Shown here: positions 2,044 through 20,622 of the stretch, in pieces
How the letters are laid out: each line of letters starts with the position of its first letter
How positions within the stretch are numbered: position 1 is the first letter of the stretch
Source of the DNA: a virus
Strand: one strand, 5' to 3'
DNA: 21,248 nt
Virus record (IMG/VR): IMGVR_UViG_3300041964_000006
Coordinates: 1-21,248 of that record
Translations under genes and position numbers: made by a program
Notes under the pieces: generated by a model
Seen by the model: only the letters and a program-made list of their open reading frames with translations
Database searches by the model: none
Told to the model about the DNA's origin: nothing

Positions 2044-2496
2044 TTACTTGAACAGAAGTTCGACGTTCGGAAGCGCACGAATGGCGTCCCGAGTGGCGTT
2101 GGTCAGGGCAACACGAAGCCCACCAGCGTTGTACTCAAAGCACCAGCCCTGGACAACCGCAGCCTCATAGACGGCAGCAACCTCACGGTCGCCCTCCATC
2201 AACTGCCAAGGCAGGAAAGTGTCGTTGACACCCACGATGTTGGTCGCCGTCTGACGACCATCGGTCGCACCCGCCTGGAACACACCCACCTTGCCAGCGT
2301 CACCACCAGAGGTGATCTTGGCAAGAATGGTGCCCGGCTGGAGCACCTTCTGGTTGGCAAACCCGTCGATCGTCTCGGCAGGGATACCAGCCGCAGCGAA
2401 CATGTAGGACTCAGCCTTGATGTCACGGGTGCTGCGAAGGTAGACGTTCTTTCCGAACGGAGTCCGGAGAGTCTTGTCAGTGCTGAACAAGGGCAT
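2044..2496 (-). CDS. Head decoration protein (lambda gpD-like)
   Basis: This 150-residue protein has an ATG start with TAGGAG about 8 bases upstream and an intact frame. It matches the head decoration protein D family (PF02924) in size and pattern: a short N-arm, then ESYMFAAAGIPAETIDG, then a beta-rich part with VLQPGTILAKITSG and KVGVFQAGATDG, then NDTFLPWQLMEGDREVAAVY near the end of the fold. Such proteins bind as trimers on the expanded capsid and stabilise it after DNA packaging. The genes on either side, protease-scaffold upstream and major capsid 14 bases downstream, are the expected neighbours. Confidence 0.85.
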   Translation of the reverse strand: MPLFSTDKTLRTPFGKNVYLRSTRDIKAESYMFAAAGIPAETIDGFANQKVLQPGTILAKITSGGDAGKVGVFQAGATDGRQTATNIVGVNDTFLPWQLMEGDREVAAVYEAAVVQGWCFEYNAGGLRVALTNATRDAIRALPNVELLFK

Positions 2497-2510
2497 TTTT
2501 CAGTCTCCTA

Positions 2511-3748
2511 TTAGGCCGTGGCCCGAGCAGCCTTCAGAGCGGCCAGCCGCTTGAAGGAATCGGTCTTTTCGACAGACTCGGGCTTCATGCCCGAACGGTA
2601 AAGGTTCTGCACGGTGTCCTCAAGAACCTGAATCTGCTCGTTCACCGGGTTCGTCTGGGACTCGCCAGGGTCGTGCTGACCGTGCTTCTCAAACAGTCCA
2701 GACTTCGGAACGTCCTTGTACGTGTCCTTGAAGGCGTTAAACTGCGCCTCGGTCATGGTCTGCACCAGGGCAGTCATGCTGTCCACCTGCGTGGCCATGA
2801 TCTGCCCGTTCTCCGACAGCGAGGTCACGAAGGACGACCGACCAGCCTTGATGGCCTCGGTGCGGAACGTCTCGAGAGTCTCGATGTGGCGCTGAACGGC
2901 AGCGTGGTCGCTGGTGTCCCGGCCATCGATGCGGAAGGAAACGGCAGCCGGACGAGCGGCGCCGTGGTCGCTGTAGCCACCGTTCTCCGTCGAGCGCTCA
3001 CCCGTGGGGGGCGAGGCGACCGGAGGGGCGCCAGCAGCAGGCGGGGCGGCAGGCGCAGTAGCAGCAGCAGGAATTGGGGTCTGAGTCTGCGGCTCGCCAG
3101 CGTTGCTGTTGCGGCCAGCGTGATCCTGAGTTTCGGGCACTTCATCCTCCTGGGTATCCGTGATGACCTGCGAAAAACGGTGCTCGGTGTCCTTGCGGCC
3201 ATACAAGCCCTCGACTGCCGGAATGTCTACAAAAGCCAAACCCATGACGACTGGATAATACGAGGCGCCTTCGTTTGTCTCATACATGCCGACTTCAAGG
3301 GATCGTGACCGGAAAGTACCACGCTCCCACTTTTCGTATGCATCCGGCTCGGTAATCTCGACATCACATGCCAAGAACTGATCGTCTTCTACGTCACGGT
3401 ACACGGCGGTGAGGTAACCCACCACGCTGTTCGCACTGTAACTGTGGTCAACTCGGAGCGGAACGTTCGGAAAGTATCCATTGTCCCGCAGGAGAACAAA
3501 GTGAAACGCCATCTGCTCCAGATGGGTGGTTTCCCATGTGCTCTCAAAACCCATGCTGTCCTTGAAGGTGCCTGCCTTGAAGATTCGCAGGCCCTTCAGC
3601 GTCCCGCCACCATTGTCATTCTTGAAGGCCTCGACCCTGGAGAAAGCAGAGGTGGTGTGAACCATCTTGCGCTCCAGGGTAGCCGTAGCCTTGTTGCTCA
3701 TTGGTGTAGAAAAGTACTGGGCGGCTGTGGTGTCACGCAAGCACTCAT
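2511..3748 (-). CDS. Capsid maturation protease fused to scaffold
   Basis: The uninterrupted frame runs from TTG (3738-3740) and gives 409 residues. A better start is ATG 3746-3748 with AAGGAG (3758-3763) upstream; it is out of frame by one base, and an extra T would give MSALRDTTAAQYF. Residues about 45-185 resemble a Ser/His prohead protease: His99 in RVDHSYS and Ser147 in FRSRSLEVGMY are the likely catalytic pair, and LAFVDIPAVEGL closes the domain. A Pro/Ala-rich linker follows (about 211-250). The charged C-terminal part (about 265-409), with TMTEAQFNAFKDTYKDVP, looks like an internal scaffold. The protease would cut scaffold and capsid N-arms during prohead maturation. Its place just before the decoration and capsid genes supports this. 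Which protease family it belongs to (HK97 gp4-like or Mu gpI-like) is not settled. Confidence 0.75.
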
Positions 3749-3762
3749 GGTCAGATTCTCCT

Positions 3763-4017
3763 TCATACGCCGATTGTGGCGGGCAGTTCTTCTGCGTTGA
3801 CGGACACGTCCTTGACGATACGCACCTTCGTCCAGTGCAGGCACTCTCTACACCGAATGTGGGCGATGCCTTCCGTCACAACAACTTCAGTATAGAGCCG
3901 GTTGCCCTTCCACGATTTGATGTGAATGAAGCCATGCTTCGTCTTGGTGTCACGACCAGCGACAGCCAGCAGTGGACGCCGGGAACACCCGCAGCGAATC
4001 TCAAGTTCGCTCTTCAT
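3763..4017 (-). CDS. Com-like zinc-binding protein
   Basis: The start ATG (4015-4017) overlaps the upstream stop as ATGA, so I use it rather than the longer open frame back to 4107; the product is 84 residues. It has two cysteine pairs, CGC near the N-terminus (IRCGCSRRPLLAVAG) and CREC near residue 60 (HIRCRECLHWTKV), enough for one zinc site. The middle, HGFIHIKSWKGNRLYTEVVV, looks like beta strands. The layout recalls the Mu Com family of small zinc proteins, which in Mu activates translation of the mom modification gene. Here it sits between the fibre module and the protease gene. An RNA- or DNA-binding role is plausible, but function is inferred only from the cysteines. Confidence 0.55.
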   Translation of the reverse strand: MKSELEIRCGCSRRPLLAVAGRDTKTKHGFIHIKSWKGNRLYTEVVVTEGIAHIRCRECLHWTKVRIVKDVSVNAEELPATIGV

Positions 4018-4679
4018 CGGGGCTTCAGATTTTCCCAAGGTCCGTTGTGGGGATACATTCTCACCCAAGAGTTCCCCACCTTCATTTCCATGATGTACGC
4101 CACCCACACGCCACTGACCTTGCGCTGAATGATCCGAACATCGAGGACATAGACAATCCGGGTAACCGAATCAATAATCGAGATGTTGTCTACGAGGTTG
4201 TAGAGCAGACCGGTAGTCCGGTCACTAGAGTCAAGCAAGGACAAATTGTCCGTCAAGGTACGAGATAGCAACACGCCCAAGAGGGATGAAGTGTTGCTAT
4301 CGACAATGCCAGCCGTGTCCGTCAGGTTGTAATTAAGAATCTTGACGGGTGTGATAATTGAGTCTTCAATGGTCGCTGTATCAGTAACAACCACAATGGT
4401 ATTGCGAGTTAATGAAACCGAGATTGTGTCGGTGATTCCAACCGTGTCAACGAACAACTCGCTCGATGACATCTGGAATGCTTCACGAGTATCAGCAACA
4501 TCTAAAGTATCAAAAACGGTGTAATTTAATACTTGACCGCCAACAGTAGACTTCGACCATGAAACATAGTCGAGAATGCTGACGTTCTCGGTGAGTACCT
4601 CAGTTGCCTGAGTCTGGGCAGCCTCACGTACGTCGGTGACCCCTACCGAATCGGTAAGGGTGTACGTGAGGGCAGCCAT
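4014..4679 (-). CDS. Repeat-containing fibre-like virion protein
   Basis: This 221-residue protein consists mainly of eight copies of a nine-residue motif of the form hydrophobic-x-D/E-x-x-x-hydrophobic-x-D, at residues 8, 29, 55, 76, 98, 119, 142 and 162 (for example LTDSVGVTD, FVDTVGITD, LTDNLSLLD). The period is 20-26 residues, mostly 20-23. The last 50 residues are different (RKVSGVWVAYIMEMKVG, then NSWVRMYPHNG) and could be an end cap or attachment domain. The repeats suggest a stacked beta structure such as a fibre shaft. The ATG overlaps the last base of the upstream GH5 gene's stop, so the two are probably co-translated. Local base composition is more AT-rich than neighbouring genes. 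I know no specific family for it. Confidence 0.7.
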   Translation of the reverse strand: MAALTYTLTDSVGVTDVREAAQTQATEVLTENVSILDYVSWSKSTVGGQVLNYTVFDTLDVADTREAFQMSSSELFVDTVGITDTISVSLTRNTIVVVTDTATIEDSIITPVKILNYNLTDTAGIVDSNTSSLLGVLLSRTLTDNLSLLDSSDRTTGLLYNLVDNISIIDSVTRIVYVLDVRIIQRKVSGVWVAYIMEMKVGNSWVRMYPHNGPWENLKPR

Positions 4680-14435: not shown

Positions 14436-15223
14436 CTTTGCGGCGATAAGCCCGGTCACCCATGAGTGTAAACACGACACCGGCCATTGCGTCGGCTACG
14501 TCTTTAGACCCGTCTGGCGGGTGGTCAACCTTGTCGCCATTGTCTACCAGTTCGCTGAGTTCCTTTACCACTATCTTCGTCAAAGACGTATCGTCGGGCC
14601 GCAGACGAATCATGTAGGGCGGGAACTCAATGCGGTTTTCGTAGATCGCCTCACGCAGGTCGTAGTACGGGAGAATCTGGCGATCCACCGAGACGATTTC
14701 GACCTCGATGCGCTTGCGCTCCAACTGCTGTCGGGTGTCGTGGACTGGAAGCCGTCCATCGTCACCTTCTTCAAGTTAAGTGATACTCGTCACGCAACCG
14801 GTAGATCATGCGCCGCACGTCACCGAGAAAAATCTCACGACCGGCCGCAGCGTGAATCCGCAGCAGCATGTCGAAGACAATGTACGGCTTCATCTCGCCG
14901 TCAACTCGATGACCTCACGCACGTGGCCCATGGCGAAAGCCCAGGGCGTCACCGTTGGCCGAGTACGCCAAGTCGATGTGGCCAACTCGCTTCAAGCGCT
15001 CATTCGCCCGGAACCAGTCAGCGATATCGCCCTCGCACGTCCACCGGGCCATCGCCGTCCGTGTCGTTGTGCTCGACCCACCGCTTCTCAGCCTCTTCAA
15101 TCTTGTAGACCAGGCTGATGAACGGGTCAGCCGGTCGCAGGCGGGATGCCTGCGAGGTCACGCAGCGCCTTCTCGGGGTTGTTCTCAAACTCACGTCGGT
15201 AGACGTTCGGAATCTCAATCAAG
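14422..15223 (-). CDS. Large terminase, C-terminal nuclease part (frame-broken)
   Basis: This is the second half of the packaging motor. It reads in pieces: NLIEIPNVYRREFENNPEKA, DPFISLVYKIEEAEKRWVEH, then ERLKRVGHIDLAYSANGDAL with a metal-binding Asp, MKPYIVFDMLLRIHAAAGRE, KKVTMDGFQSHDTRQQLERK with a second Asp, and a final intact stretch (14422-14724) holding the third acidic motif DHPPDGSKDVADAMAG. This is the RNase H-like nuclease typical of TerL, which cuts concatemeric DNA. At least seven one-base shifts separate the pieces; several that I checked are repaired in short homopolymers. Order and motifs are preserved, so the protein is probably functional in the real phage. Confidence 0.75.
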
Positions 15224-16116
15224 TTATCCGTCCCAGGCCATCTTGGCAGCCAAGGGTGGAACGATGTCGTGTCGCTTGCTGTCGTACCAGAACGAATCAC
15301 GCTCGCCGGTCACGGGATCGGTGTGCTTGTCCCAGCCGAACGACTCCCAAATCGCCATGCGGACCGCATGGGCGTTCGGGTCCTTCTTCATCTCCTGATA
15401 CTTCTTAGCAGCGAACCCGTTGCCCTTCTTCATCTGACCGATGACCAGCAGGAACCCCTTGTCACCGAATCGACTAGTGATACGAGACGAGATGGTCGTG
15501 TAGCCCTGCTCGGCGTAGTCCTTGTTCGCCGTCACCTTGTGCGAGTCGGCCTCATCCAGAATGCCACCGAGAATGTTGTAGCCCTCAAAGGTCGTTTCGG
15601 CAGAGTCACCGGGCAGAATCCAGATGTCCTTTTGTGGAAAGCGAATCTGGTTCTTGAAGTTCTTGTCGTAGGGAAAGTTGTTTTGGAACCAAGGCGAGTA
15701 TTCGATTCGTGCCTTGATGTCGCCAAACACCACCTCCTTGGCCTGGGGGCCAGACGTAGACATCTGCATGAAGGCAATACGTGAACCCGGCAGCAAGGTT
15801 GAAGTAGCCCTGCGGGTCAGCCAGGACAGAGCACCCAGTGCGCCAGGTAGGGCAGCACGATTGAGGCAACGGTCGTCTTGCCGATGCCGATGCCGCCCGT
15901 AATCATGGCGAGCGGAAACTGAGTCATCCGATCGCCTTGACTTCCTTGCCCATGATGGTTTCAAGTTCAGGCCATGATGGCAGGGCGAACTCGACCAGCG
16001 ATGTTCAGGTAGTCGGGGCCGACAAACTCACGGATTGACGCAGGACGCTGCCAGAACTGAGGATTGTCTTGGATGAACTTGAGTTCCCGCAGGATACTCA
16101 TGTTCGACACAGCCAT
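15224..16116 (-). CDS. terL: Large terminase, N-terminal ATPase part (frame-broken)
   Basis: The start is ATG 16114-16116, with GAGGG 8 bases upstream, two bases after the small terminase stop. It reads MAVSNMSILRELKFIQDNPQ, then PSWPELETIMGKEVKAI, then MTQFPLAMITGGIGIGKTTV with the Walker A motif, LADPQGYFNLAAG and RIAFMQMSTSGPQAKEVVFG. The longest intact piece (about 15224-15800) carries Walker B NILGGILDEADSHK and the coupling region FLLVIGQMKKGNGF. At least four frame changes separate the pieces, one of them placing a stop within the Walker A frame (at CPG*). Each is repaired by a one-base change such as CC to C or TT to T. Together with 14422-15223 this gives a protein of about 565 residues, normal for TerL, which powers DNA packaging through the portal. 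Confidence 0.82.
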
Positions 16117-16118
16117 CG

Positions 16119-16613
16119 CTAGTCCCTCGGGATCGTGGCAACGTCGATGGCCCTGGCCCGCAACTCCTCAGGCTCTTCCAACACCGCCTTCACCATGTCA
16201 GGCGTGATGTTCTCTCGCTTGATTCCACGCTTCACGAACTCCTCGACAATAGAAGCCATGAGCGCCTGCGGGAGTGCTGGCGTTGATCGTCTGCTGATTG
16301 AAGGTGATCTTCGTGGCACTGGCCGACGCCAGGTCGGGGTTGACCAACTTCGCCAACTTCACACCACGGTCGAAGAGTGTGTTGACGATCTTCGTCACCT
16401 CGGGGTTCAGTTCACCCTCAGCGTTCTCGTCCAGCAAGCCAACCTGCAACCGACGAGACTGGACCGCCAGCAGCGTGCCCAGACCCTCGATGATCGTTTC
16501 GCTGTCACGGGTCTTGAAGAACTGCGCCAGTTCTTGCGATTCGCTGTCAGGCACGATGCACACGGCTCCTGTTCGGAAGTATCGACATGAGTCCTGCAAA
16601 GAACACACGTCAC
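16119..16613 (-). CDS. Small terminase subunit with N-terminal zinc ribbon (frame-broken)
   Basis: A GTG start (16611-16613) overlaps the upstream stop as GTGA. The first frame gives MTCVLCRTHVDTSEQEPCAS then Cys, with Cys3/Cys6 and Cys18/Cys21 forming a likely zinc ribbon. An insertion of one C joins it to SESQELAQFFKTRDSETIIE and a helical core ending KITFNQQTINA. A second one-base shift leads to LPQALMASIVEEFVKRGIKR and TPDMVKAVLEEPEELRARA, ending at 16119. About 164 residues result. Small size, helical content and position two bases before the large terminase support a small terminase, which recognises the packaging site. The zinc ribbon may take part in DNA recognition. Confidence 0.65.
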
Positions 16614-17406
16614 AGAGGAAACTTGTCGCCCCGCATGATATCTTGCTTTACCTTCAGCATGATACGGGTGTGGACGGGCTTGTGGCTAGGATCATCAGGG
16701 TCCACCGGGGCAAAGCCCTTGGCCTTCATTGCAACTGCTTCTTGGAAGTACACCGCAGCCCACAACGCCGACTTCATGTTGTAGAGACAACGATTACGAG
16801 GCACCTTCAGTTCGTGTGGCCGCGTTCCGAGCAGATTCAGCCAGTACGAATGGTCAGGGGCTCGTTCGTACGACACAATCTTGCCGGTAGGAAGAACAAC
16901 ACTTCCCTTGGCAGCCTGCGTGCGTGCGTCCAGATCGATAGATCGGTAACCCAAGCCGAACAGCGTTTGATGACCGTAAACACCATGCACATGCATGATG
17001 GCTTCGGGATAGTCCTCCTGAACATCACGCAGCAACCGGAAGAATGCCTTGCCGGTTGAAGTAACCGCTGATGGTGCGCTGGTCACGAACACTCGATGAT
17101 GCTGGTCCTCGGGCGGCTTACTCATCAAGGTTTCCAGGCGTTCCATCGGCTCGCCGTAGCGCCAGACAGAAAAGACCTTGCCGTTATCTTCATGGCCCGG
17201 CGCAATGAACTGTGCGCCCTGCTCGGTGTTGCCGATCACGAATAACTCGTACGGTTGAGTACCGTAGTACAAGTCTGACCAACGCTTTGGGTCGATATTG
17301 CGCTTCTTGAGATAGCCCACGTCCCACACCATCTTGCGGATACCCTAACTCAAGCATCTCCTTGATGACATGCTGTGGGATTGCGAATCCATACCTCGAC
17401 CGGCAT
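16610..17406 (-). CDS. Unrecognised conserved-type protein at start of late block
   Basis: The intact frame 16610-17332 gives 240 residues beginning MVWDVGYLKKRNIDPKRW. Coding potential extends upstream in two other frames (RYGFAIPQHVIKEMLELGY, preceded by MPVE from ATG 17404-17406) through two one-base shifts, so the full protein is about 265 residues. Visible stretches include YYGTQPYELFVIGNTEQGAQ, VHGVYGHQTLFGLGYRSIDL and MKSALWAAVYFQEAVAMKAK. I do not recognise the family and see no catalytic motif. Its stop overlaps the small terminase start (GTGA), so it belongs to the packaging operon and is the first late gene after the divergent control region. No clear ribosome-binding site precedes 17406, so the start is tentative. 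Confidence 0.65.
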
Positions 17407-17557: not shown

Positions 17558-18314
17558 TTGTCTGACAACCTTGATGTAATCAAGGCTCTCGGATCACGCT
17601 TCATCGAACGACGTGACGTAAAGGCAGTTCAGGGCGAAAAAATCGCCTGGCAGCCTGTCAAGACGAAGTTCACGATGCAGGATTTTGAGGACCATCTGTC
17701 TGGGAGGCGCACCTTTGGTCACTATCTGGTGTCGCCGGATGGCAATTGCAAGTTCTTCGCTTTTGATATTGACCTGGATAAAGAAGGTCAGTACTTCGAT
17801 GCGGCGGGCACGTTTCACCCGTGCAACCCTCGTGAGGTCATTCTTGAACGGGGACCACCCAGGATGGCTGGAGTTCGCACACGACCTGTCCAGCATCGCA
17901 GCGGGGTTCGCTTCCAAGATCAACAGAATCTTGGGCCTGCCTACCGCAGTTGCCTGGTCTGGAGGCAAGGGTCTGCATGTCTATGGGTTCACGGGTACGA
18001 AGAAGGCCAGCGTCGTCAGGACACTTGCGGCAGGACTGATGGATGATGCAGGGTGGCTGCCCACCCGTGGCGACAACTTCTTTAAGCACCCCCAGCACGC
18101 CAACGACCCACTCGCCTACCCGCACGTGACCATCGAAGTGTTCCCCAAGCAGGACACCGTTGGCTCGGATGGGTTCGGCAACCTCATGGCACTTCCGCTG
18201 GGCATCCACGGGATCACGAAGCAGGAAAAGTACTTCTGTCGGCTGAACGAGGACTCGTGGACTGTGGCTGATCCGATCAATGCACTCAGTGGCGACGTGT
18301 TGCCGTGGGAGTGA
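17558..18314 (+). CDS. Archaeo-eukaryotic-type primase/primase-polymerase (one frameshift)
   Basis: The start is TTG 17558-17560, with CAGGGGG about 7 bases upstream. The first frame runs to about residue 97 (...CNPREVILER) and the second continues GDHPGWLEFAHDL to the stop at 18314; removing one G from the GGGG run joins them, giving 251 residues. The sequence carries the three primase motifs of the archaeo-eukaryotic primase superfamily: the metal-binding DxD in KFFAFDIDLDK (Asp70, Asp72), SGGKGLHVYGF with the nucleotide-binding His, and VTIEVFPKQD. The FPKQ form is like that of TOTE-type primases (family knowledge). It would make primers at the phage replication fork. The GTG of the next gene overlaps its stop (GTGA). 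Confidence 0.78.
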
Positions 18315-18463
18315 CGACAAGGCGACCGCACCGACCTTCTGACACCGTGCCGTGGGAAGCAGTCATCTCATGGAAGTGTCTTGACTGTGGTTATTGGGTC
18401 AAGGAGTACGGACCCAGGGACGACACCGTGTGCCCCGGCCCATCTGCCGAGGTTGACTCGTGA
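18311..18463 (+). CDS. Small Cys-containing protein between primase and helicase
   Basis: A GTG at 18311 overlaps the primase stop, and the stop at 18461-18463 overlaps the next GTG in the same way, so all three genes are translationally coupled. The 50-residue product begins MTTRRPHRPSDTVPWEAV and contains Cys23, Cys26 (WKCLDCGYW) and Cys41 (TVCPG). This looks like half of a zinc ribbon or knuckle with a possible His or Asp ligand. The Arg-rich N-terminus suggests nucleic acid binding. It may be an accessory factor for the primase or helicase. No known family recognised. Confidence 0.7.
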   Translation: MTTRRPHRPSDTVPWEAVISWKCLDCGYWVKEYGPRDDTVCPGPSAEVDS

Positions 18464-20450
18464 CAGATGACGACGACGAACTGCTCGCCCGGCTGCGAGC
18501 GCACCAGAAGGCCCAGGGCAAGGTCGTAGAAGACCAGCCCAGTCTTCTCGCTGTGCCCGATAGTCTGGTTGACGAAGACCTAATCCCCGACATTGAGCCC
18601 TTTGAGCGCTCTGACGAGGATCTTGAAATTGACGGTGTGCTTGATCGCCTGAACATCTTGGACGCATACGCACGATGGTGCGGAAAGATGCAACCCAAGG
18701 TCGGCAGCAAGCGCGAGAGCATCATGGTGTCGTGCCCGATGCCTGGTCACGCCGACAAGAACCCATCTGCGTGGCTGAACCTCGACAAGGACACGTGGTA
18801 CTGCGGCGGTTGCCAGATTGGTGGCGACAAGTACGACATCGCTGCCATCCAACTCGGTTACCCGTTTCCTGAAGTCTACAAGACTGATGGCTCGTTCCCT
18901 GATCTGCGCCGTGACATGGCCGAGGATTTGGGCTACGTCGTGCGACGGACTCCTAGCGGACACGAGTATGTCGAAAAACTCGATTTCGAAGAATCAAATA
19001 AACTAGAAACCCAAGCGACCGATAATCACAATTCAGTCGCTCCAGGCGCTCCAATTGCGCCCGAAATGCCCGATTTAGGAGCATTTTCGGAGTCTGTAGG
19101 GGTGACCGATAACCAAACTCAACCCGAAAACATTGATACAAACTCCAATGTCCTCAGTTTCCCGATGCCTGCTGATCCCGAGACGTTCCACCAACGGGTT
19201 GAAGAATCGGGAGCGTTCATCGACTGGGAGCAAATCGTCACCCCAGGGACTTTTCTGTGGGAATGGATGCAAGCCACCACTATCGATGACCTGCCACACG
19301 AGTATTACTTCTGGCTGGGGATGCAGGGCATCGCCTTTGCCGCTGGCACCGACGTGGTGATGGACGACTACCGTCGCATCAAGCCAAATATTTTTGTCTG
19401 CCTCTACGGCTCAACCGGTAGCGGTAAGTCCCGGTCGATTGAGCCGTACGTGTCGATGCTGCGATCGGCGTTGCCCCGAGATGACGCCGACGACTACACG
19501 CCGTCCAAGGGCGTGGAGCATCTGCCGTCACCGGCATCCGCCGAAGCCTTGCTGAGAATGTTCCAGCACGATATCAAGGACCCCAGCACCCAGGCGGTGC
19601 TTGAGCAGGCCCAGGTCAAGGGTCTGTTGCGAGTCGAAGAGTTCGCATCGTTCGTGGCTCGGGCAAGTCGGCCAACCAACCCGATGAAGGAAACCCTCAT
19701 CGAGTTGTACGACGTGCTCGACCACACCATGAAGCACATGTCGGTCACGGGTGGCACGGTCAAAGCGAAGAATCCGTTTGCTCAGATGGTCACCTCCACC
19801 CAGCCCAAGGCGATCCACGCCTTCCTCCGTCGCAACGACACGGAGTCTGGGTTCTTGAACCGATGGATTTTTGCGACTGGTGCCCGGCGTCGGCGCCGGA
19901 TTTCCTACGGCGGCGTCCAGATCGACGTACAGCGGTCCGCAGACCTGTTGCGTGACCTGGCGTCGTGGTGCGGAACGGGCGGCTCTTTGAGTTGACCGGC
20001 GATGCGCTAGAAGCGTGGGACGAGTTCTTCCATGCGGAAATCGTGCCTCTGCATGACAACATGGACGAGTCGATGCTGTCACGTATCGACCTGTTGCTCA
20101 AAAAATTGATTGTGCTCTTCACGATCAACGACAAAGAATCGCAGCCGACTGCCGAGACGGTCAAGAAGGCTATTGCCATCTTCCCATACTTGCGGCTGAC
20201 CTCCATCATGTTCAGCACCGACATTGCTTACTCAGAGTTTGAGCACTGCCGGGTCGAAGTTCTAGAGGTTCTGGCCAAGGAAACCGAAGGCATTACATCT
20301 CGGGTCCTGCTGCGCCACATCGGCCAACGGCACGAAAAGCAGTTGATCGCACAGGTACTTCGGACCATGGTAGAACTCGGGGAGATTCAGGAAATCGTGA
20401 CGAAGGGCAAGCGTGGACCCGCTACGGCAAGGTATGCAGTCGTTGACTGA
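18460..20450 (+). CDS. CHC2 zinc finger-DUF3987-like helicase fusion (one frameshift)
   Basis: The start is GTG 18460. The first frame gives 511 residues to 19995; the C-terminal part continues in the next frame (RLFELTGDALEAWDEFFHAE ...) to 20450, and one added G near 19980 joins them into about 663 residues. Residues about 88-135 hold a DnaG-type zinc finger: Cys92, His97, Cys115 and Cys118 in SCPMPGHADKNPSAW and TWYCGGCQIGGDKYD. A flexible, AT-rich linker follows (about 172-232). Residues about 240-600 resemble DUF3987 helicase-like ATPases: Walker A GSTGSGKS (317-324), an acidic motif LLRVEEFASF (389-398), and QMVTSTQPKAIHAFL. The C-terminus (EITSRVLLRHI-like, about 600-663) looks like a winged helix. 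No catalytic TOPRIM domain is seen, so the primer-making activity probably comes from the upstream primase. Confidence 0.78.
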
Positions 20451-20622
20451 GCCTCTGATGACCCAAGAAGAGGTCGCCGCCATGTTCGGGGTGACGATTC
20501 ATGCTGTCCGCAAGTGGCGGCAGTGGGGCTGGATCGAGTTTATTCGGGTTGGCCGCACCGTCCGGTTCCAACGGGAACAGGTCGAGAAGTTCATGGCCGA
20601 TCACGTCAACGTGCCTGCCTAG
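20434..20622 (+). CDS. Excisionase/MerR-like helix-turn-helix protein
   Basis: The core MTQEEVAAMFGVTIHAVRKW followed by WGWIEFIRVGRTVRFQREQV is the standard small winged HTH of the excisionase (helix_turn_helix_17) family, which binds short DNA sites. Possible starts are GTG 20413, ATG 20434, TTG 20443 and ATG 20458; I use 20434, which gives 62 residues, but no start has a good ribosome-binding site. All but the last overlap the helicase stop at 20450. It may be a recombination directionality factor or a small transcription regulator; no integrase is seen in the window. It is the last gene of the plus-strand operon. Confidence 0.7.
   Translation: MQSLTEPLMTQEEVAAMFGVTIHAVRKWRQWGWIEFIRVGRTVRFQREQVEKFMADHVNVPA

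Follow-up and report, generated by a model that had tools for sequence, protein, structure and literature searches.

The window analysed here is the whole of the IMG/VR virus record IMGVR_UViG_3300041964_000006, a stretch of 21,248 bases. Its minus strand carries capsid, protease and portal genes and a terminase, the last recognised by its match to a Rhodococcus phage, and its plus strand, divergent from the terminase, encodes an archaeo-eukaryotic primase (AEP), a small ORF, a helicase bearing a zinc finger and then an HTH gene. The primase gene (17558..18314, plus strand) comprises the catalytic core only, as judged from Pfam AEP-TOTE matches to both halves, PHROG 5362, the motif residues and the alignment of a modelled relative to the CAPP Prim-Pol domain; frame A starts at a TTG at 17558, frame B runs to the stop at 18314, and the change lies near 17.8–17.9 kb. 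The small ORF (18305..18463, plus strand) contains one CxxC and has 52 residues when read from the GTG at 18305 or 50 from the GTG at 18311. The helicase gene (18460..20450, plus strand), assigned by Pfam and PHROG 5311, joins a CHC2 finger, a linker, an MCM-like AAA+ motor and a winged helix; its two frames cover 18460–19995 and 19965–20450, with the change near 19.98 kb. Directly 3' of it, a small HTH_17/excisionase-like gene (20413..20622, plus strand; Pfam HTH_17, 4e-9) probably belongs to the same transcription unit as the helicase. The GTGA overlaps reported between these genes in the initial annotation were found at 18311 and 18460, the small ORF overlapping both of its neighbours. A sigma-70 promoter scan returned two candidates against 1.5 expected from shuffles, that is, no enrichment.

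The AEP and helicase genes each contain one frame change in the window. The terminase (14437–17362, minus strand) is split over many frames, more than the primase or the helicase, and the proteins of its relatives align to it in many successive frames, whereas no frame break interrupts the portal, protease or major capsid gene. Since the terminase is broken so much more often, the frame breaks are read as indel noise in the contig and not as decay, and a pseudogene reading of the primase and helicase becomes less likely given that these last three genes are unbroken. Despite the split frames, the window retains every catalytic and zinc residue, and the AEP and helicase genes are intact in all 15 cultured relatives read. 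The AEP and helicase are also divergent from the terminase in complete phages, namely Rhodococcus phage Trogglehumper and the Gordonia phages Orchid, John316, Katyusha and Austin. The host of the window phage is probably an actinobacterium.

The two halves of the window AEP match Pfam AEP-TOTE at 8e-7 and 1.6e-8 and PHROG 5362 ('DNA primase') at 1e-24 and 6e-26. The metal-binding residues on which the primase call of the initial annotation hinged are kept across the two frames as D17765, D17771, H17976 and E18135 (residue coordinates give the first base of each codon), and the two Asp, the His and the Glu (DxD, SxH-type and third acidic motifs) are invariant in 15/15 cultured and 50/50 environmental relatives. 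Against the PDB, the AEP profile matched the CRISPR-associated Prim-Pol CAPP at 1.6e-28. A structure model of the AEP of a relative, L056 (pLDDT 89), has the Prim-Pol fold, superposing on the CAPP Prim-Pol domain with a Z score of 23.2 over 197 residues (1.9 Å, 28% identity). Lower scores come from LigD polymerase domains (Z ~12) and from primase subunits of human or yeast (Z ~11 and below). The Helicobacter pylori protein HP0184 (PDB 2atz), with its AEP-like fold, ranks above LigD as the next match, with Z 13.2 over 159 residues. The L056 model shows neither a PriCT nor a zinc nor a PriL-like domain, and there is no room for an accessory domain because the Prim-Pol alignment spans residues 13–271 of 276. 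The score of L056 against the CAPP equivalog NF040561, 78.5 bits, is under the curated cut-off of 200 bits. The AEP is closest to CRISPR-associated Prim-Pol, and primase activity with de novo primer synthesis is predicted for it. In vitro priming by the Prim-Pol cores of CAPP and of human PrimPol needs no accessory domain, according to the available text of PMC10345425.

The AEP of L056 also matches RT_UG10 models, and primase parts recur beside reverse transcriptases. A defence-system reading of the locus was considered and set aside, as nothing in the defence libraries matched beyond other Prim-Pol, RT_UG10 or DnaG-like parts. A more distant set of loci, L089–L096, carries AEP-TOTE domains related to that of the window, and a cysteine-rich stretch follows the AEP in several that were translated. 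In five of them (L089, L090, L094, L095 and L096) the AEP opens a longer frame, of ~890–914 residues, and DUF927 was matched in two of the four scanned by Pfam (L089, L090, L094 and L095).

The motor of the window helicase, split over two frames, matches DUF3987 at 5e-5, scoring 23.0 bits where the cut-off is 27, and PHROG 5311 ('helicase') matches over both helicase frames at 1e-87. The Walker A Lys-Ser pair lies at 19426..19431 on the plus strand, the lysine at 19426, and is followed by a Walker-B glutamate (E19639) and an arginine at 19861. Among 46 relatives, Pfam (E<=0.01) found DUF3987 (PF13148) in 42 and MCM5_C in one. A model of a relative, L077 (615 residues, pLDDT 87), comprises a confident finger, a disordered linker at ~145–193, a well-predicted motor and a helical and winged C-terminal part. 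Its motor superposes on yeast Mcm5 (9e2w) with Z 19.0 over 269 residues (3.6 Å, 14% identity) and on the archaeal MCM 3f8t with Z 18.3 over 250 residues (3.2 Å), and the helicase profile matches Mcm7 (2.6e-6), with the alignment lying mainly in the C-terminal part. In the model only the finger and this linker precede the motor, which begins at ~208, leaving no evident room for an MCM N-terminal (OB, hairpin) domain, and none was seen in the whole-chain model. The earlier label 'DUF3987-like ATPase' therefore stands as a Pfam name, while the L077 model and the Mcm7 profile match make MCM-type AAA+ core the better description; in the model, the motor is an MCM-type AAA+ core fold. A hexameric state and 3'-5' unwinding are predicted for the helicase.

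The absence of a TOPRIM domain from the helicase, central to the initial annotation, is borne out: none was found in either window frame or in the 46 helicases (Pfam, E<=0.01), for which seven Pfam families were listed, none of them a TOPRIM family. The window is a fragment, so absence of other primases from it is uninformative; the search for these was made in 15 complete cultured relatives. PF13155, PF01751, PF13362 and PF13662 were each found in 0/15, the same four TOPRIM families being positive in 14, 14, 9 and 14 of 14 well-known genomes used as controls. A hidden TOPRIM domain can thus be discarded for both helicase frames, the 46 relatives and the 15 complete phages as far as these four Pfam families reach. 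PolA (PF00476) and PolIII-alpha were likewise found in 0/15, and DnaB_C exceeded its cut-off in none, with one sub-threshold match in Mbo2. Matches of the helicase model in BFVD include some proteins named for TOPRIM and others named for Prim-Pol domains; the motor thus seems to be paired elsewhere with both primase types.

The DnaG-type CHC2 finger occupies 18607..18963 on the plus strand, a domain of ~120 residues with a C-H-C-C ligand set (C18733, H18748, C18802 and C18811). The window finger matches Zn_ribbon_DnaG at 3.5e-5, its 24.0 bits falling slightly short of the 24.9-bit cut-off, and across the 15 cultured records the finger exceeds the cut-off in six and gives some match in 14. The nearest solved structures are DnaG fingers, 2au3 (3e-4) and 1d0q (0.0056), the matches coming near 1e-5 with the full helicase profile. 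The fingers of T7 gp4 and DnaG have a role in template recognition. Of the 55 clusters in which the finger could be read, 54 keep all four zinc ligands, and two further clusters are cut by the contig end; in the remaining lineage (L078 at 2100–4121, L079 and L086) three ligands are present and the fourth is absent, with 'CPQDGG' in place of the last pair. One may ask whether the finger is a functionless relic of a single-chain ancestor with finger, TOPRIM and DUF3987, as the motor also occurs in phage proteins that BFVD names for TOPRIM and Prim-Pol domains. This is highly improbable, as the four ligands persist in nearly every readable cluster despite helicases that are only 21–45% identical to L077, and as the finger outlasts an exchange of the motor, described below.

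Two further observations concern the finger. In Streptomyces phage Success (L138:4932-5853) the finger match falls in gp30, and gp29 is an overlapping second ORF; both are annotated as DNA primase, which suggests a split gene or a programmed frameshift. The window finger (within 18460–19992) gives a match, too, to RTasDnaG-like, a PADLOC model for DRT defence systems.

The 50-residue protein between the two genes is probably not a core part of the system, judging by sequence comparison. No homologue of the small ORF was found in any locus searched, the best non-self match having an E-value of 1.6, and the gap between AEP and helicase is 200 bases or less in 30 of 53 clusters, with some pairs overlapping. 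An essential-subunit role by analogy with the small middle protein of SCCmec elements was rejected on these grounds.

Is the arrangement peculiar to this contig? When viral contigs were scanned with the AEP alignment, 80 loci were obtained, of which the eight outgroup loci (L089–L096) were set aside; 87 loci, including the 15 cultured ones, formed 68 clusters at 90% identity, and 54 of these had 2 kb or more of sequence 3' of the AEP. In 53 of the 54, far beyond chance, a finger-helicase follows the AEP on the same strand, and the co-occurrence that the initial annotation proposed to survey is therefore real. L054 and L057 are counted among the 53 by their finger only. The sole exception, L038, has an AEP without a finger-helicase nearby and other genes in its downstream frames, and counts against an AEP–finger module. 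Nine of the 27 directly adjacent AEP–helicase pairs share a 4-base in-frame overlap. Further, when only the finger served as query, irrespective of motor and AEP, the scan returned 42 viral loci and one genome locus, many on the same contigs as in the AEP scan, with an AEP upstream in 41/42 and 1/1, respectively. The split layout, with an AEP gene, a CHC2 finger on the helicase and no TOPRIM, is accordingly a stable trait of a large group of actinobacterial phages, which appear to lack a bacterial-type primase of their own.

Among cultured phages, tblastn found the AEP in 117 records and the helicase (E<=1e-3) in 105 Gordonia, 6 Rhodococcus and 6 Tsukamurella records, counts that include some GenBank/RefSeq duplicates. 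Counted by genus, the two proteins give matching tallies, and both are present in 15/15 fetched records, where the overlap was checked. Helicase matches were also obtained in Streptomyces (two records) and Vibrio (one record); that in Vibrio covers only the motor, and the one Streptomyces match listed covers only the finger. No plasmid relatives of the L077 helicase were found. This distribution bears on the possibility that the AEP is a repair, conflict or CRISPR-type Prim-Pol placed by chance beside a helicase, as might be supposed from its nearest families (AEP-TOTE, CAPP and the PrimPol models of defence libraries). With the helicase gene linked in 53 of 54 clusters and complete relatives lacking any TOPRIM primase match, there is very little to recommend a non-replicative AEP.

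In some finger loci the motor differs. In L054 (9981–11339) and L057 (7920–9818), the CHC2 finger is fused to an AAA_25 ATPase (4e-23 and 9e-26, respectively) and not to the MCM-like motor, with an AEP of the same family upstream; scans for wider relatives with L057 and L054 returned only themselves. A third, prophage-like locus, L134 (2480–4239), is the one viral finger locus without the AEP upstream: a stand-alone finger gene of 214 residues is followed by an ATPase gene called AAA_25-like by its resemblance to L057, and no AEP of the window's family was found in its 18 kb record, the search being limited to that family. That the finger remains next to the AEP after an exchange of the motor favours a finger that serves the primase, as do the restriction of the AEP to a catalytic core and the near-constant finger–AEP pairing. 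That reading is weakened by the ability of related AEP cores to prime alone, by L134, by the lineage lacking a ligand and by the mirror-tree analysis. With 43 taxa, mirror-tree correlations were 0.63 for finger–AEP, 0.54 for motor–AEP and 0.59 for finger–motor; with 51 taxa and trimming they were 0.49, 0.59 and 0.66. The first run left out 14 of 57 clusters (contig-end cut, incomplete finger pattern, other motor, or strict Walker pattern unmatched) and the second left out six (L040, L044, L054, L055, L057 and L068). The order changes with treatment, and the analysis gives no support for a special finger–AEP link.

The same evidence must be weighed for a finger that works for the helicase instead, gripping DNA or guiding the fork in place of the MCM N-terminal domain, with an AEP that primes alone and merely shares the operon. 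The finger is, after all, covalently joined to the helicase ahead of the MCM-like core; L134 retains finger and ATPase without this AEP family; related AEP cores prime unaided in vitro in the available text cited above (PMC10345425); and finger–motor gives the highest correlation in the trimmed mirror-tree. An AEP upstream of 41/42 viral fingers, a finger that stays beside the AEP after motor exchange, and solved relatives that are primase fingers of DnaG speak against it, and we consider it a possible though rather unlikely account. Another alternative gives host DnaG a part at the phage fork as well, with the finger recruiting or imitating that primase or its contact with the helicase. The DnaG-like character of the finger and the composition of L134, a finger and motor without the AEP, are in keeping with this, but an AEP retained with invariant catalytic residues would then be redundant, and such recruitment is improbable.

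The account preferred here is a finger that serves the AEP. The two genes most likely form the priming–unwinding module of a tailed phage. In this proposal, the stand-alone AEP, nearest to CRISPR-associated Prim-Pol, would synthesise primers, and a hexameric MCM-type AAA+ helicase would open the fork while carrying the DnaG-type CHC2 finger ahead of its motor on a disordered linker. The finger may hold the exposed single strand and present it to the AEP, aiding primer start or placement, a job that would correspond to the one that other AEPs assign to a cis-acting PriCT, Zn or PriL domain and DnaG to its own finger. The primers would then be handed off to a host polymerase, which probably extends them. 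The components, their folds and residues, their linkage and the absence of TOPRIM, PolA and PolIII-alpha matches from complete relatives are drawn from sequence or structure prediction. It is very likely that the AEP is the only recognisable primase, that the MCM-type motor is the replicative helicase and that a host polymerase extends the primers; service of the finger to the AEP in trans is plausible, with the odds close to even. For the proposal as a whole (AEP priming, MCM-type unwinding, template presentation by the finger and host extension), we estimate a probability of about 0.5. Its boldest form, a primosome of mixed ancestry in which an archaeo-eukaryotic core starts primers with a bacterial DnaG finger supplied in trans by an MCM-type motor, is more tentative and falls somewhat short of even odds.

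In such a mixed primosome, if it exists, the finger would act as a movable unit for presenting the template, able to serve a polymerase fold that has no kinship with the one alongside which it evolved. A finger that works with the AEP would also mean that template recognition and chemistry are separable and can be swapped between unrelated primase families. Cultivated phages also offer a small two-protein system in which the coupling of an MCM-type motor to an AEP can be studied, and a fold is suggested for part of the DUF3987 family. An annotation also needs correction, as the finger-helicase is called 'DNA primase' in several phage records, yet no primase domain was found in it.

Comparison with known systems places the module among several partial precedents. 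The closest are phages of Gordonia, Rhodococcus and Tsukamurella (ReqiDocB7, Perlina, Trogglehumper, GTE7, TIN4, Orchid and Jumbo), which have the same two proteins in the same order (PHROGs 5362 and 5311), divergent from the terminase where the flank was read. The window proteins are ~20–42% identical to these cultured-phage proteins in the best-placed tblastn rows among the matches listed. The products annotated in these phages are 'DNA primase' and 'helicase' or 'primase'; none of the annotations examined comments on the lack of TOPRIM, the split or the MCM fold, and one record, that of Mbo2, notes the CHC2 finger. The AEP has its catalytic core in common with CAPP of Marinitoga (7nqe, 7nqf and 7p9j), unlike which it lacks a TPR or C-terminal domain and sits with a helicase. 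The N-terminal finger resembles that of DnaG and T7 gp4-type primases, which combine CHC2 with TOPRIM, whereas the window module has no TOPRIM and bears its finger on an AAA+ helicase. Similarly, archaeal MCM and Mcm2-7 helicases have in common with the motor the AAA+ core and a C-terminal lid and winged-helix region; unlike MCM, no MCM N-terminal domain was seen in the model and the Pfam name is DUF3987, not MCM.

Two further systems approach the combination from different sides. In PrimQH/All3500, as described in the available text of Kazlauskas 2018 (PMC5862659), an AEP, a ZnBD or PriCT, DUF3987 and a winged helix occupy one chain. As far as that text goes, the window has the same set of AEP, zinc or PriCT, DUF3987 and winged-helix parts, with the AEP as a separate protein and a DnaG-type finger on the helicase as the zinc module. 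The SCCmec operon CCPol-MP-Cch2, for which the available text of PMC7581432 describes a priming enzyme, a small middle protein and a helicase with priming split over proteins, is a precedent for operon-split priming. In the same account CCPol is an A-family polymerase without a zinc domain; an A-family polymerase of this type (PF00476) was found in 0/15 complete relatives, and the small ORF of the window is not conserved. No description of DUF3987, MCM and a CHC2 finger joined in this way was found in the open-access literature searched. The module is thus real, conserved and annotated piecemeal in public records, its combination unremarked in that literature; what is new here is that its motor, as modelled, folds as an MCM AAA+ core and that two loci with the finger beside the AEP carry an AAA_25 motor in its place.
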